Source of the DNA: a virus
Virus record (IMG/VR): IMGVR_UViG_3300027852_000107
Coordinates: 1-37,361 of that record
Strand: one strand, 5' to 3'
Length of the DNA: 37,361 nt
Position 1 is the stretch's first letter. Each line of letters opens with the position of its first letter. The translations under genes were made by a program, and so were the position numbers. The notes under the pieces were generated by a model that worked only from the letters and a program-made list of their open reading frames with translations, ran no database searches and was not told the origin of the DNA. Below are positions 2,832 through 27,698 of this stretch, in pieces.

Positions 2832-4111
2832 AACTAAGAAAGTATCAAAAGGAGGGCGTGGAGTTTTTATCGTCCCGCCATCATGCTATACTAGGAGATG
2901 ACATGGGGCTTGGAAAAACCATACAAGCTGTAAAAGCTATAGAGCGTATATCAAGTACCATGTCACATGGTCTACCCATTGTTCTAGTAATATGTCCAGC
3001 TATAACTAAACGCCAATGGGAGAGCTGCTTTTTAGATGATGGTTGGGGGTCAGAGCATATCTTTGTTTTTGATTCTGCAGTTGACGCTGATAACTATCAA
3101 TGTTTTATCCAGAAACATATAACTATAATATCCTACTCTCTTTTAAATAATGATAAAGTATTTAATGAAATAGCTAAGTATGTATTTGATGTCCTAATCA
3201 TGGACGAAGTACACTTTTTAAAGAATAAAGACTCAAAACGAACTAAAAAAATATTAACAGGGGAAAAAGCAATAGCACGCAGTTGTACCTACAAATGGGG
3301 GCTGTCTGGTACTCCGATGCTGAATAGACCTGTAGAACTATACACAATACTACGTGCTCTAGCAATAGAGAAGATCAAACCATATGATACATATGTCAAA
3401 TACACAGACAGGTTTTGTGCAGCTTACTTTGATGGCTTTCAACGAAATGTCAGAGGAGCTAGCAATCTTGCAGACTTACGTTCTCGCCTTAATGGTTTTA
3501 TGATTAGACGACTTAAGAGTGATGTTGCGAAAGAGTTACCAAAAGTAATTGAAAATATAATCACAGTTGATACTGCCGTCGCCGTCAAAACATCATTTGA
3601 TAATGCTGAAACATTAGGTGCGTTAGCTACTATTAGACGAGAAACAGGTATGGCAAAACTACCAAGTATAATTTCACATATCAAAAATGTCCTAGAGCAG
3701 AAAAAGAAAATCGTAGTTTTTGCGTATCACAGGAACGTTATATCTGCGTTACATGATGTATTTATTGAGGAAGCTACTGTACTATATGGTGAGCAGAGCA
3801 CTTTTTTTACCAAAAAGTTAGTTGTTGGCCTTTTCATAGATAATCCTGACAACCGTATTATTATTGGTCAAATGGTAGCAGCAGGAACAGGGCTCGACGG
3901 ATTACAGAATGTATGTGACCATATCATATTTGCTGAGCTTGACTGGACTCCTGGACGAATGTTGCAGTGCATAGGTAGATTGGATAGACTAGGGCAGAGA
4001 AATCCTGTTACCGTCGACTATATGGTATCAGAAAACGAACACGATCAATTGATGTGGCGATCAGTCGCACATAAAGATAAAAACATAAAGGAGGTATTAG
4101 GAGATGCGTAA
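2828..4111 (+). CDS. SNF2-family DNA helicase/translocase
   Basis: This 427-residue superfamily 2 ATPase has the compact SNF2 layout found in many phages. Visible motifs are the Q-motif region KYQKEGVEFL, Walker A DDMGLGKT (24-31), motif II DEVH (126-129, where most SNF2 proteins have DEAH), motif III LSGTPMLNRP, and RRLKSDV. The C-terminal half has GTGLDGLQ (motif V) and QCIGRLDRLGQ (motif VI, 380-390). Known SNF2 proteins translocate on double-stranded DNA and remodel protein-DNA or branched complexes. Here a role in replication-fork remodelling or in clearing bound proteins is likely. The ATGA overlap with the primase-helicase suggests coupled production. No extra DNA-binding or nuclease domain is fused. 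Confidence 0.9.
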   Translation: MKLRKYQKEGVEFLSSRHHAILGDDMGLGKTIQAVKAIERISSTMSHGLPIVLVICPAITKRQWESCFLDDGWGSEHIFVFDSAVDADNYQCFIQKHITIISYSLLNNDKVFNEIAKYVFDVLIMDEVHFLKNKDSKRTKKILTGEKAIARSCTYKWGLSGTPMLNRPVELYTILRALAIEKIKPYDTYVKYTDRFCAAYFDGFQRNVRGASNLADLRSRLNGFMIRRLKSDVAKELPKVIENIITVDTAVAVKTSFDNAETLGALATIRRETGMAKLPSIISHIKNVLEQKKKIVVFAYHRNVISALHDVFIEEATVLYGEQSTFFTKKLVVGLFIDNPDNRIIIGQMVAAGTGLDGLQNVCDHIIFAELDWTPGRMLQCIGRLDRLGQRNPVTVDYMVSENEHDQLMWRSVAHKDKNIKEVLGDA

Positions 4112-4409
4112 TGGCAAAAAGTATGATACTGAAAAACTTAGGTGGGATTTGCTACCCATATCACCTATTAGACAAGTTATAAGAGTTCTGATGTATGGTG
4201 CTAAGAAATATGGAGATTATAACTGGGAACAGGTAGAAGATCCTAAACCTAGATATTATAATGCCTGTATGAGGCACTTAACTGCCGGTATACAAAAGAC
4301 TAATGACTCTGAATCGGGATTGCCTCATTTAGCACACGCAATATGTAATTTAATTTTTTTATTAGAGTTCGAATTAACACAAAAAAAGGAGAAAAAAGAT
4401 GACAATTGA
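4104..4409 (+). CDS. dATP/dGTP diphosphohydrolase-like protein (MazZ-type domain)
   Basis: This 101-residue helical protein has the signature of the phage dATP/dGTP diphosphohydrolase N-terminal family (formerly DUF5664). Visible elements are KYDTEKLRWDLLP near the N-terminus, YGAKKYGDYNW (31-41), a basic helix ending RHL, and DSESGLPHLAHAICN (68-82) with acidic residues suited to metal binding. Relatives such as MazZ of cyanophage S-2L remove pyrophosphate from purine dNTPs. A role in adjusting purine nucleotide pools is inferred. No PurZ or DatZ gene accompanies it, so 2-aminoadenine DNA is not indicated. The gene overlaps the SNF2 stop by eight bases and the following gene by eleven. Confidence 0.75.
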   Translation: MRNGKKYDTEKLRWDLLPISPIRQVIRVLMYGAKKYGDYNWEQVEDPKPRYYNACMRHLTAGIQKTNDSESGLPHLAHAICNLIFLLEFELTQKKEKKDDN

Positions 4410-4914: not shown

Positions 4915-6140
4915 TAGAAGAAGAAAAAAAACATGCAAAGTACGCCCCGTCTACGGGTAAGAGGTGGACTAATTGCTCTAAATGCATACAGTTATGCGAA
5001 AATCTTCCTGAATCTGAGACGAGTATATACGCGGCTACAGGCACTGTCCAGCATGCAGTAGCAGAATTGCTACTACAAGACCGAAAAAAAGGTCGAAATA
5101 AAATAGCAAGTGCTTACGACTACGTGGGGGAAGTCTTTGAGGAAGCTGACTTTGAGATTAAAATCACGGAAAACATGGCCGATGCTATAGATGGATACTT
5201 GGATCTAATAGCTCAAGACCTTGCAAAGTTAGGACTTGCATACAATAATTTAGATATTGAGAAGCAAGTACGATTAGATGGTGTATCAGCTGATTGTTAT
5301 GGGACTGCTGACGCTATAATCCATCAAGATTTTGGTAAACTCACTATATATGATGAGAAGTATGGCCAAAACATTGTAGAAGCTAAGGATAATACTCAAC
5401 TCATAATATATCTTATCGGAGCGTCCATTTTATACCCCGATTGTGATACTTTTGAAGTAGTAATATACCAGCCATACGCTAAACGCCCTAGTGGACCAAT
5501 AGGGAGATGGGCTGTATGCAAAGACGATCTTTTACTCTATAGGGAAAGATTAAGGATGGCAATTAAAGAATGTGAAAGTGATGACGCTAAATTTGTAACA
5601 GGCCCGTGGTGTAAATGGTGCCCAGGGGCTACAGAACAAGTATGTACTGCACTAGCGGATGATATATACAAGACCGTTATCGACGATTTTAGTAATGCTC
5701 CAGCTGTACTGACAGCTGCTAACCCTGCTAAAATTGTTAGTGCTTTGGAAAAAGTACCAATGATTATGCAGTGGTGTACCGCCGTTAAAGAATATGCCAA
5801 TAGGATAGCTGAGAATGGAGATCTCCCTGGATATAAGATGGTAGAGAAATATGGTAATAGAAAATGGAAAAACGAAGACGCTGCTCTTGATGCATTGTCA
5901 CAAATGTATGGAGCGGACGCGTATAATAAGAAGTTAAAATCTCCAGCTCAAGCAGAGAAATTGTTTGGGAAAGGGAAAAAAGGAAAGTATGAGTTTAATT
6001 TAGAGATGGGGTCATATGTCGAAATACCAATGACAGGAAAAACACTTGTTAAGTGTGACGATATCAGACTCGCTGTAAAAGATAGTGTTAAAGAAGACTT
6101 TAAAGCTATACCAAAGTTAGTAAAAGAATTGGACATATAA
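4911..6140 (+). CDS. DUF2800 family PD-(D/E)XK nuclease (Cas4/RecB-like)
   Basis: This 409-residue protein matches the phage DUF2800 family, related to Cas4 and RecB nucleases. The visible core is GTVQH (His 48), GTADA (Asp 134), YDEKYG (Asp 148-Glu-Lys 150, the D-x-K motif) and QLIIYLIG (Gln 163 to Tyr 167). Cysteines at 22, 25 and 29 and a later set at 234, 237 and 245 are arranged much as in Fe-S-cluster Cas4/AddB enzymes. A metal-dependent DNA exonuclease acting in recombination or end processing is the likely role. It is directly followed by the single-strand-binding protein gene, the usual partnership of DUF2800 with DUF2815. The C-terminal 150 residues are helical and without recognised motifs. 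Confidence 0.85.
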   Translation: MIEEEKKHAKYAPSTGKRWTNCSKCIQLCENLPESETSIYAATGTVQHAVAELLLQDRKKGRNKIASAYDYVGEVFEEADFEIKITENMADAIDGYLDLIAQDLAKLGLAYNNLDIEKQVRLDGVSADCYGTADAIIHQDFGKLTIYDEKYGQNIVEAKDNTQLIIYLIGASILYPDCDTFEVVIYQPYAKRPSGPIGRWAVCKDDLLLYRERLRMAIKECESDDAKFVTGPWCKWCPGATEQVCTALADDIYKTVIDDFSNAPAVLTAANPAKIVSALEKVPMIMQWCTAVKEYANRIAENGDLPGYKMVEKYGNRKWKNEDAALDALSQMYGADAYNKKLKSPAQAEKLFGKGKKGKYEFNLEMGSYVEIPMTGKTLVKCDDIRLAVKDSVKEDFKAIPKLVKELDI

Positions 6141-23012: not shown

Positions 23013-23031
23013 ACGCGTACTCCTATATGTT

Positions 23032-23061
23032 AAAAAAGTGGCGGAGTCGTTACCTCCGCCA
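23032..23061 (-). terminator. Intrinsic terminator after the capsid-decoration genes
   Basis: Read on the minus strand, a perfect 8-bp GC-rich stem (TGGCGGAG pairing with CTCCGCCA, at 23054-23061 and 23039-23046) with a 7-base loop is followed by C and six Us (23032-23037). It lies between the decoration-like gene and the tail adaptor gene. In T7 the main terminator likewise follows the capsid gene, letting capsid mRNA outnumber tail mRNA. It is the only clear intrinsic terminator I found. Confidence 0.92.
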
Positions 23062-23093
23062 AACCAACGTGTTACGTCAGAGGGTAGTTATAA

Positions 23094-23588
23094 TTAACCT
23101 TGTATGAATTCTAGCATTACCACAACCGTAGCTGCAGTTGTGCCGATAGTTGGGCACGTAAACGCTATATCATATCTTGGTTTCTTAGTTGCGTTAGTTG
23201 CTCCAGCATGCTCATACAGTGTGTACCCAGAATTCTCAATAGCCATATTAGACAACCCATCTACAGGAGACGATCTAGCATTACCTGCACTGATGTCTTC
23301 AGCATCTAAGAAAACATTGTCATCTACCACAGCACCTGACTCTGTGTCGTACAGTCCCATGTTCCAATCTGTAGCATTTGTAAGAGCATCATTATATATC
23401 TTTGCATCAGTTATAATTAACGAACTATCAAGTCCTTTTGCTATACGAAGTACTGATGTGTCAGAATCCGCAGCAACAGTTTCAAAAACCACCATCATCT
23501 TAAGTGTTTTTGCACCACTGATAAAAGCGGAATTAGCTAACTTACCAGCTTCGGCATTTGCATTTACATATTTATCTACAACAGCCAT
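23094..23588 (-). CDS. Putative capsid decoration or minor head protein
   Basis: This 164-residue beta-rich protein is encoded right after the capsid gene with a strong AAAGGAGGA ribosome site, suggesting high expression. The layout (VVFETVAADSDTSVLRIAKGL, then LIITDAKIYNDALTNATDWNMGLYD, then GAVVDDNVFLDAEDI) is familiar from proteins that follow capsid genes in other phages and are thought to be structural. No enzyme motif is present. It is followed by the terminator, so it is co-transcribed with the capsid gene. Decoration or head-associated function is inferred from position. Confidence 0.7.
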   Translation of the reverse strand: MAVVDKYVNANAEAGKLANSAFISGAKTLKMMVVFETVAADSDTSVLRIAKGLDSSLIITDAKIYNDALTNATDWNMGLYDTESGAVVDDNVFLDAEDISAGNARSSPVDGLSNMAIENSGYTLYEHAGATNATKKPRYDIAFTCPTIGTTAATVVVMLEFIQG

Positions 23589-23602: not shown

Positions 23603-24487
23603 TTATTCAGTGAATGTAACTTTTTGTACTAAAACGCCTTCTGTACGTACCGCACCCCAAATTCCTGTAATCTGAACTTGTTTGGTGTTTACATAATCAG
23701 GACGTTTATCAATTTCTATAGTCATGTCTTTTGCCATACCTACCACAATACCTCTGGTACTCATAGCAAAACTAGTTCTAACTGCACTAGCAATTGGGAG
23801 AACAGGGATATTAGCACCTGCCGCAAATTTGACAATGTTCATACCTACTGCATAAACCATTTGTCCTTTGTCTACAACAAACTGTCTTGAGAAGTCACCT
23901 GATGTTAATTCAGTTTCTTTCATTAACGCAGTATGCTCGTCTCCAGATATACCCATAACAATAGTTTCAGGGATATCATTTCCTACATCTGCATCGATAA
24001 AGTTTTGTTGTATTTCTAACAATTTTTCATAAGTTAGTCCTGTTGTAGCGTCTACTGTCGCTCCACCATCTGAAGCAAAAGTAACAGTAGTATCAAAATC
24101 TCTACCTGTTGCTACGCTTTCCACAGTTGCTTCTACTATAACTTTGTCGTACTTCCTCTCCATTGCTCGGATACAAGCTTGTGCGTATTCGCCTTCAGGA
24201 TTAAAAAGAACAGCAGCTACATCCATGCCGTCTATAGGAAGAGTCACCACAAATCTTCGTCGTCTGATTTTTCGTCTATTGTGTTCAATGTCATTAAACA
24301 CTGTTGCTTGTATGCGTCCACTAACCTCTTGTGCATCTACAATCCCTAAACCATCGTACGCGAATATATCTCCTGTCATTTGGATAATACGAGTGTACGG
24401 TCGTAATCTAGCACGGATTTGTTGAGCTTGGGCATGAAGCATATCAGCAAATTGGATAGGCATATTATTGTCTATTGAATTACCCAT
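23603..24487 (-). CDS. Major capsid protein (HK97-fold, Phage_capsid_2-like)
   Basis: This 294-residue protein builds the head shell. It fits the podovirus capsid family with a helical N-arm (FADMLHAQAQQIRARLRPY), the basic RRKIRRRRFVVTLPIDGMD segment (E-loop region), PEGEYAQACIRAMERKYDKVIVEA (spine helix) and a C-terminal A-domain strand pair ending GAVRTEGVLVQKVTF. The ATG at 24487 is chosen because GGAGA at 24493-24497 lies five bases ahead of it; an in-frame ATG at 24499 overlaps that ribosome site and has only an A-tract upstream. The scaffold gene lies upstream, separated by 204 bases that hold a promoter and a structured leader. Confidence 0.88.
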   Translation of the reverse strand: MGNSIDNNMPIQFADMLHAQAQQIRARLRPYTRIIQMTGDIFAYDGLGIVDAQEVSGRIQATVFNDIEHNRRKIRRRRFVVTLPIDGMDVAAVLFNPEGEYAQACIRAMERKYDKVIVEATVESVATGRDFDTTVTFASDGGATVDATTGLTYEKLLEIQQNFIDADVGNDIPETIVMGISGDEHTALMKETELTSGDFSRQFVVDKGQMVYAVGMNIVKFAAGANIPVLPIASAVRTSFAMSTRGIVVGMAKDMTIEIDKRPDYVNTKQVQITGIWGAVRTEGVLVQKVTFTE

Positions 24488-24647
24488 AGTAGTCTCCATT
24501 TTTTTTTAAGTTCAAAACCATTTTAATCAGTCTCGATACCCGTTTAAACGGACGCTACCTAGTCATGTCAGTGACATATCTGGATAGTTTAACTATCAAC
24601 AAGCGGACGCTGTACCATGTACAGAGATACCCACTAAATACCCTTAT
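24488..24647 (-). promoter_or_regulatory. Structured 5' leader of the capsid gene
   Basis: This gene-free stretch holds four compact inverted repeats: 24610-24624 (6-bp arms, loop CAT), 24583-24597 (7-bp arms), 24565-24577 (6-bp arms around one base) and the perfect palindrome CCGTTTAAACGG at 24540-24551. CGGACGCT occurs twice (24549-24556, 24604-24611), and GATACCC twice (24535-24541, 24626-24632) with a third partial copy at 24638. With transcription starting near 24641 these would form a chain of hairpins in a leader of about 150 nt, ending at the ribosome site 24493-24497. It could stabilise mRNA, be a processing site, or control capsid translation. I know no named RNA family that fits. 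Confidence 0.6.
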
Positions 24648-24676
24648 ATTAAACAAATTTTTTTTTAATTTGTCAA
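24648..24676 (-). promoter_or_regulatory. Capsid-gene sigma70-like promoter
   Basis: On the minus strand, a perfect -35 TTGACA (24671-24676) is followed by a 17-base spacer and TTTAAT (24648-24653), five of six consensus bases. The spacer contains nine consecutive A residues. It sits between the scaffold and capsid genes, so it would drive extra capsid and decoration transcripts up to the terminator at 23032-23061. Confidence 0.7.
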
Positions 24677-24691
24677 GGAAAAAAATGAACT

Positions 24692-25504
24692 TTATTTATT
24701 AATCTTTACTATAGTATCATTTATCTCGTTAAGACGTTGCATTATTCTCGGATGTTCTGCATGAAATTTATTTCTAAATCCTTCTGAGCCATATAGTTTC
24801 ACCCGTTCTGCCCGAAGGGTATTTATATTTGCAACAGGAGCTGCAGGGCCGGTGCCTTTGCCACCAATTTTATCTTCACTGATATACTCTTTTGTAAATC
24901 CATCAATAGCTGCTGCAAAAGTCAGTAATACTTCATCAGATGCCTCTTCCATTTTAGCTTTAAAGGTTTCAGGTACATACTTACTAATAACTTCTTTTGC
25001 GTTATTTAAAATCTTATCCTTACTATCTCCAAAAAGCTCAGTAGCACTTTCTTCAAAAGCCTTAATGCTATCTGTTTTATCTTGATCTTGCTTTTCAGTC
25101 ATACTCCGCACTAACTCATCAAATCCTTTTTGGATACCGACTCCCTGTTTTTTAGATAAGTTATGCTTAAAAAATAAATCTTTTACATTTTTAGCAAAAT
25201 CTTCGTCAACTTCAGCTCCTTCAGCTATCTCAAATTGGTAACCTTCCGCATTGTCAGGTTTCCCAAATGCTTTATAGAAGCTAGCTGAATCCTCTGGGGA
25301 CGTGCTATCATCAGGTATCCCTGCTGGTCTCTTTCCAATTAACGATTCAGCTCCATCTAATTTTTTGTAAAGAGATGGGAGATCGTTTATGTCTTGAAGG
25401 TACGGTTTATCTCTATACTCTTCAGGGATTGTGTCTTTAAAATTAGGAGTATTATCTCCTACAATTGGTTCTGTGTTTGCTGGTATTGTCGCTGGGTCAC
25501 TCAT
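24692..25504 (-). CDS. Capsid assembly scaffolding protein
   Basis: This 270-residue acidic, helical protein lies between portal and capsid genes, where podovirus scaffolds sit. The N-terminal part has a familiar pattern: DTIPEEYRDKPYLQDINDLPSL, then a KLDGAESLIGKRP helix, then PEDSASFYKAFGKPDNAEGY. A charged helical middle follows, and a C-terminal segment (INTLRAERVKLYGSEGF, HPRIMQRLNEI) is likely to bind capsid protein. It should template procapsid assembly and then leave. A purine-rich AAAAAAGGAG site precedes the ATG. No protease is fused. Confidence 0.85.
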   Translation of the reverse strand: MSDPATIPANTEPIVGDNTPNFKDTIPEEYRDKPYLQDINDLPSLYKKLDGAESLIGKRPAGIPDDSTSPEDSASFYKAFGKPDNAEGYQFEIAEGAEVDEDFAKNVKDLFFKHNLSKKQGVGIQKGFDELVRSMTEKQDQDKTDSIKAFEESATELFGDSKDKILNNAKEVISKYVPETFKAKMEEASDEVLLTFAAAIDGFTKEYISEDKIGGKGTGPAAPVANINTLRAERVKLYGSEGFRNKFHAEHPRIMQRLNEINDTIVKINK

Positions 25505-27549: not shown

Positions 27550-27698
27550 TATTCCTCCTTTCTCGATTTTATCTCGAGTCTTATCCTTGATAATACTTCT
27601 TGATTTTTTTGAAGTTTAATATTTAGTTTCTCTTGAAAAACTAAAATATTATATGCTATTACTTTTAACTCATCAGTGGTTTTCTCTTTAACGCTCAA
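27549..27698 (-). CDS. Small coiled-coil protein, 49 codons, TTG start
   Basis: A frame of 49 codons runs from TTG at 27698 to TAA at 27549-27551. The product (KEKTTDELKVIAYNILVFQE then KLNIKLQKNQEVLSRIRLEI) has heptad-like spacing. It resembles small phage proteins built on an ELKxxAYDI(I/L) helix followed by a second helix. GGAG about ten bases upstream supports TTG. It overlaps the preceding gene by eleven bases, ends in TAATG with portal, and carries the portal ribosome site in its last codons, so coupling is likely. Its function is unknown. Without it this 138-base gap would be unusual in so tightly packed a block. Confidence 0.7.
   Translation of the reverse strand: MSVKEKTTDELKVIAYNILVFQEKLNIKLQKNQEVLSRIRLEIKSRKEE

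Follow-up and report, generated by a model that had tools for sequence, protein, structure and literature searches.

Upstream of the capsid gene in a 37,361-base podovirus record from IMG/VR (hereafter the window), we found a member of a predicted structured RNA family that lies outside Rfam, accompanies a single gene, that of the coat protein, and extends across Vibrio, Yersinia, Alteromonas and Pelagibacter phages as well as many uncultured ones. The shared unit is a helix of about 5 pairs (helix a) that ends in GG/CC and a wobble, followed by a 3-base bulge NAN on one strand (the X strand, opposite Y) and a further helix of about 3 or more pairs (helix c). Judging from the sequences compared here, this capsid-leader RNA probably sets the amount of coat protein.

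The late genes of the window lie on the minus strand in the order terminase, portal (PHROG 332), scaffold (PHROG 3742), a gap, capsid (PHROG 3437), a 164-aa protein and tail genes. The features of the region, in the direction of transcription, were as follows.

24692-25504, minus strand: gene of the scaffold protein (PHROG 3742), which may be the trans-acting partner
24648-24676, minus strand: sigma-70-type promoter TTGACA-17-TTTAAT, 11 of 12 consensus matches
24602-24635, minus strand: unit 1, strand order X-Y (from sequence, fold and the landmark-selected homologous unit)
24583-24597, minus strand: central hairpin GAUAGU-UAA-ACUAUC between the units (from the fold)
24564-24578, minus strand: second central hairpin UAUGUC-ACU-GACAUG (from the fold, seen in the window)
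24529-24559, minus strand: unit 2, strand order reversed to Y-X (from sequence and landmark-selected units with covariation)
24488-24497, minus strand: Shine-Dalgarno GGAG (24497-24494) and spacer of the capsid gene (from sequence)
23603-24487, minus strand: major capsid protein gene (PHROG 3437, E 7.7e-38)
23094-23588, minus strand: 164-aa protein of the same cassette (by position)
23039-23061, minus strand: hairpin resembling an intrinsic terminator, closing the capsid cassette (terminator scan)

The first-pass annotation had described the gap between the scaffold and capsid genes as the only sizeable internal one. By ORF coordinates it is the largest of the late gene block, but others exist, namely 138 nt at 27550-27687, which ranks second in the block and precedes the portal gene, and 81 nt at 23013-23093, which contains the terminator-like hairpin. 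The near-consensus promoter that had been placed in the scaffold-capsid gap was recovered on the minus strand, with the -35 box TTGACA at 24676-24671, a 17-nt spacer and the -10 box TTTAAT at 24653-24648. The predicted promoter is of host type, and the transcript would start near 24641. Our promoter scan, which accepts only -10 boxes with A as the second base, did not list it. In 75 homologous leaders, a promoter with at least 10 of 12 matches preceded the first unit in 51% of cases, compared with 3.2% of shuffles, and the median distance from the -10 box to the core of the first unit was 15 nt. The capsid start is most likely the ATG at 24487, served by the ribosome site GGAG, rather than that at 24499.

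All four inverted repeats reported for the gap were located (24635-24602, 24597-24583, 24578-24564 and 24559-24529), as were the duplicated words, AAACGGACGCT/AAGCGGACGCT at 24546-24556 and 24601-24611, and GATACCC at 24535-24541 and 24626-24632. The description of a unit duplicated and inverted in order was exact, since the transcript reads GGGUAUC - GCGUCCG - GCGUCCG - GGGUAUC (X-Y-Y-X). Unit 1 has the helix a AGUGGG/UCCGCU with a G.U wobble at 24630/24607 and the bulge UAU at 24629-24627, beyond which follow a C-G pair, one U/C mismatch, CUGUAC/GUACAG and an AUG loop. Unit 2 reads CG-UCCGU-UUAA-ACGGG-UAU-CG, again with a G.U wobble and the bulge UAU (24538-24536), and is flanked by tandem G.A mismatches and GU/AC pairs. 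Both units (24635-24602 and 24559-24529) carry every element of the family definition, that is, GG plus wobble, an NAN bulge and a second helix on the capsid transcript. The folding energy of 24641-24488 was better than that of shuffled sequences (-39.2 versus -30.9 ± 3.65, z -2.27, 3 of 200 shuffles at least as good), an excess that is modest taken alone. No G+C-rich hairpin with a U run, as expected of a terminator or attenuator, was present within 24488-24641. The window failed our strict unit scans because its second helices (helices c) are short or interrupted, and its own unit 2 is weak. Since the window itself displays the RNA less well, the case for the RNA rests on its relatives.

When the leader DNA was searched against phages for distant similarity, no match was obtained, and relatives were therefore traced via the capsid protein. 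These searches returned relatives at 71% identity and below, and the DNA 5' of their capsid genes carried the same element in strongly diverged sequence. Altogether, 92 capsid-gene leaders from IMG/VR and cultured phages were compared. Protein-blind scans pointed to the same location. The pattern ACGTCCGTN{3,20}ACGGGTATCGT recovered 9 loci from 2.9 million viral contigs, of which 7 preceded a capsid gene match by 33-95 nt and 2 fell inside long ORFs. With a second pattern, 30 loci were obtained, 4 of which lay before capsid genes with a second unit upstream, while most others were inside long ORFs; an initial pattern, CGTCCGN{2,30}CGGGTATCG, was discarded as too loose (120 loci, only 4 capsid leaders). 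Clear intergenic two-unit copies were found before capsid genes only, and the window and MW202485 each carried the two-unit element at the capsid leader and nowhere else. Within the genome collection, the capsid occurred on two MAG contigs only. Rfam 15 gave no match at the gathering threshold in the window, weak chance-level matches in the leader region and none in the leaders of ten relatives, and no self-cleaving ribozyme was among the matches for any of these. We found no published description of this capsid-leader RNA.

By the strict rule, at least one unit was present in 74 of the 92 leaders (15.0 in dinucleotide shuffles) and two units in 44 (1.2 in shuffles); the 18 leaders with none included the window, K300 and ZP6. 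The wobble was counted in 77 non-redundant leaders, with the flanking pairs required and the wobble position left free. This position was G.U 115 times and A.C 17 times, every other combination occurred 0-5 times, and shuffles gave 2-4 each; Watson-Crick pairs were at background level only. A unit with either wobble was found in 72 of the 77 leaders, against 7.8 after shuffling. The third base of the NAN bulge followed the wobble, being keto (U/G) with G.U at a ratio of 82:5 and amino (A/C) with A.C at 27:4, so that the rule was kept in 109 of 118 units, and the two units of a leader shared their bulge in 26 of 32 cases (7.7 shuffled); these two results are inflated by descent, and the unit, wobble and bulge counts all ignore phylogeny. 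Versions with A.C are spread over several separate groups (MW202485, L134, L135, Vibrio 1.182.O, Yersinia YeP5 and the Pelagibacter phages). As G.U and A.C wobbles are isosteric, the wobble and the third bulge base would behave as one base triple, and their joint pattern is the signature of such a predicted triple. Pairing between the bulges of the two units was rejected on inspection, the sequences not being complementary, and an RNase III site was considered, but the helices are short.

The units occur in four strand arrangements. In the window, most of its relatives, the V. cholerae phages phiVC8 and VP2, and Vibrio 1.182.O they stand side by side in reversed strand order (XY then YX), which explains the earlier impression of a unit duplicated and inverted in order, and many side-by-side relatives have a hairpin of varying sequence at the place of the central hairpin. 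In L233-L262 the units are nested, with XY in the loop of YX. Tandem YX+YX was found in L217, L221, L222, L228 and L231 and, by eye, in YeP5, and tandem XY+XY, also by eye, in Alteromonas ZP6. The Pelagibacter phages, including HTVC010P, have one clear YX unit, not two, with an A.C wobble and the bulge GAA or UAA. In nine leaders (L168, L169, L171, L172, L174, L180, L186, L188 and L191), the inter-unit segment GGUAAAGCCUACC...GGC could form a small pseudoknot consisting of a hairpin stem and GCC/GGC loop pairing. The L134/L166 leader is longer than those of its relatives and has an apparent third bulged hairpin (GGUAUCGCCCAUC...GGAUACCG).

Compensatory changes support both of the arrangements tested, nested and side-by-side. 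For the nested group, the nested fold gave 92.5% paired cells, 9 pairs changed on both sides and a covariation of 0.206, compared with 0.081 ± 0.011 after shuffling, and RNAalifold recovered this fold unaided; a tandem pairing of the same leaders was rejected (80% paired, covariation at the shuffled level). For the side-by-side group, units were chosen only by the landmarks GG[AG]NAN and G[TC]CC, with mismatched leaders as controls. The units so chosen also paired outside the landmarks, at a3 in 0.83/0.89 of leaders (unit 1/unit 2), at a4 in 0.89/0.87 and at c1 in 0.86/0.97. These three positions in both units, and c2 in unit 2, exceeded the controls with z of 4.7-7.1. Hence, the proposal of a cis-acting RNA, for which conservation and covariation had been put forward as the check, is borne out by a structure kept in dozens of relatives with compensatory changes.

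Downstream, 36 of 70 relatives had a terminator-like hairpin no more than 800 nt past the capsid gene, compared with 3.2 in shuffles; among the hairpins listed, most were 510-600 nt after the stop codon in the group of the window and 6-8 nt after it in the nested group. With the promoter enrichment, the capsid gene thus appears to form a separate transcription unit whose 5' end carries the RNA; it runs from the promoter through the leader and the capsid gene, and about half of the relatives close it with a terminator-like hairpin. The 164-aa protein had no PHROGs or Pfam match, and its gene sits where head decoration proteins often lie, which hints at such a role. For the capsid gene of phiVC8, the promoter predicted in the literature has the X strand of unit 2 (AACGGGTA) as its -35 box (PMC4802629); instead, TTGACT-17-TATAAT is present upstream of unit 1. 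The GenBank record of the same phage (L275, record positions 5460-5601) annotates unit 2 as a promoter and the promoter region, up to the start of unit 1, as a terminator. Both annotations look like misreadings of the capsid-leader element and its promoter.

The best explanation, which we hold tentatively and at somewhat less than an even chance, is that the paired bulged-helix RNA is a two-site recognition site for a phage protein that tunes capsid synthesis. The comparison itself shows a promoter-like sequence, a conserved RNA structure, the rule of two cores, the location at the capsid gene and the enrichment of terminator-like hairpins; the explanation further supposes a trans-acting protein. 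Because the bulges of the two units in a leader match, the units would follow one partner, most likely a phage protein, that recognises both copies. This partner would bind the wobble-plus-bulge core of both hairpins and thereby tune how well the capsid mRNA is translated or how long it lasts, bringing coat-protein output into line with assembly; strand order and connection would be irrelevant, and two correct cores would suffice. Small bulged hairpins in structural-gene mRNA are familiar from the coat-protein operators of RNA phages and the autogenous mRNA sites of DNA phages. The capsid-leader RNA shares with coat operators the bulged hairpin and a possible structural-protein target, but it has two copies and a wobble with a three-base bulge, and it sits in the leader, away from the start codon. 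Ribosomal-protein leader RNAs likewise are mRNA leaders with bulged helices recognised by a protein of the operon; here, in contrast, the leaders had no Rfam match and the bulge changes in concert between phages.

A different reading, which we consider rather unlikely, is a put-like element whose nascent RNA binds host RNA polymerase at the exit channel and makes it resist pausing and termination, giving a high flux through the capsid cassette. HK022 put comprises two stem-loops, about 70 nt, in which bulges and non-canonical pairs occur, and it acts without a phage protein (PMC9378689). Its defining elements include stem I/II with the A9-G35 pair and a triplex. The capsid leader resembles HK022 putL and putR as a phage cis RNA with two bulged stem-loops and non-canonical pairs directly behind a promoter (PMC9378689); as with put, the element is found in the nascent transcript just downstream, a median of 15 nt separating the -10 box from the first unit. 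The host-type promoter also fits, as does the fact that a phage RNA polymerase was not recognised among the window proteins searched. However, HK022 put belongs to the early-gene leaders of a lambdoid phage and not to a capsid gene, and a conserved core common to both would be conjectural. The capsid-leader family, for its part, has permuted copies of one unit and terminator-like hairpins in the same cassette. That about half of the relatives keep such a hairpin at the cassette end would be odd for a resistant polymerase, and concerted variation of the bulge between copies is unexpected for a conserved host target. We are equally doubtful of a 5' stabiliser or translation leader in the style of T7 gene 10, in which 5' structure slows decay and an A/U-rich stretch ahead of the ribosome site speeds initiation. 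T7 has a phi10 promoter, a structured gene 10 leader, the capsid gene and a T-phi terminator, and by sequence the separate promoter, structured leader, capsid gene and terminator seen here resemble the phi10-gene 10-T-phi layout. The structure in the window begins about 6 nt past the predicted +1, and the leader precedes the most abundant structural protein. T7, however, uses its own polymerase. The window promoter is sigma-70-like, and no phage single-subunit RNA polymerase was recognised among the window proteins searched (part of the ORFs). To our knowledge the T7 leader lacks a comparable pair of bulged units, and stability alone requires neither a conserved bulge, a wobble restricted to G.U and A.C, a base-triple signature nor matched bulges.

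Less probable still is an RNA switch, in which Y2 (the Y strand of unit 2) pairs either with X2, leaving the ribosome site open, or with the Shine-Dalgarno, closing it, a ligand or protein making the choice. In the window, Y2 (24562-24549) is nearly fully complementary to the capsid ribosome site (24500-24488, minus strand). The duplex GUAGCGUCCGUUU : AAAUGGAGACUAC has an energy of -13.4 kcal/mol and is used by the full-length MFE structure (-40.2 versus -30.1 kcal/mol with unit 2 enforced), while a shorter nascent RNA without the ribosome-site region forms the UCCGU/ACGGG stem of unit 2. Strong Y2:ribosome-site complements also occur in L261, L243, L180 and L239. Across 59 leaders, however, conserved sequestration was not significant, own Y2:SD energies barely beating swapped ones (p 0.05-0.08), and the nested group showed no effect, so that the switch is not a clear family feature. 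Among the relatives, the second unit is situated 5' of the ribosome site, and no masking pairing is conserved. Chance hairpins, or an operator array acting as DNA without RNA function, we regard as very improbable. The fold of the window alone is only 2.3 sd better than shuffles, and the direct repeats are present as DNA. Against this stand the compensatory changes, the nested fold and the protein-blind recovery before capsid genes. Chance hairpins were rejected by the excess of G.U/A.C units over shuffles and by the covariation of the nested group. The protein-binding array on DNA, raised in the first pass as an alternative, is disfavoured because pairing is kept while the sequence changes (GG/CC to AG/CU, G.U to A.C).

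Returning to a two-site recognition element for a phage protein, the first candidate partner would be the scaffold protein, whose gene lies immediately upstream. P22 offers a known example of scaffold autoregulation. No unit was present in the relatives that lack the gap (Piluca, vB_EcoM_APEC, Acinetobacter TPWB-05 and MD-2021a). The scaffold proteins of leaderless capsid relatives (L270, L278, L279 and L267) are about 203-217 aa long and lack an N-terminal segment, with a consensus of about PEEYR...LIGK...IP...ASPED...GRP, that is found in leader-bearing phages. The link between leader and scaffold N-terminus is suggestive, given that the four leaderless phages are interrelated and scaffold sequences are poorly conserved. 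In a bolder form, which we consider speculative and unlikely, a new RNA control module would couple free scaffold protein to capsid synthesis. Built from a bulged helix that can be permuted, whose base triple covaries and which is wanted in pairs, it would govern the stoichiometry of head assembly in a widespread lineage of podoviruses, HTVC010P-type ocean phages among them. It is an old question how tailed phages regulate the ratio of coat to scaffold protein, and a conserved RNA in culturable phages makes it testable, with the wobble plus bulge as a sharp target for mutation. The unit also offers a clear example from nature of a single RNA motif that persists while its strand order is permuted.

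Among the leader-bearing phages, ZP6 and phiVC8 carry PurZ (2-aminoadenine DNA), and no unassigned ORF of PurZ size was seen in the window. At 4104-4409 on the plus strand, the window has a strong Pfam match to a dATP/dGTP diphosphohydrolase N-terminal domain (PF18909).
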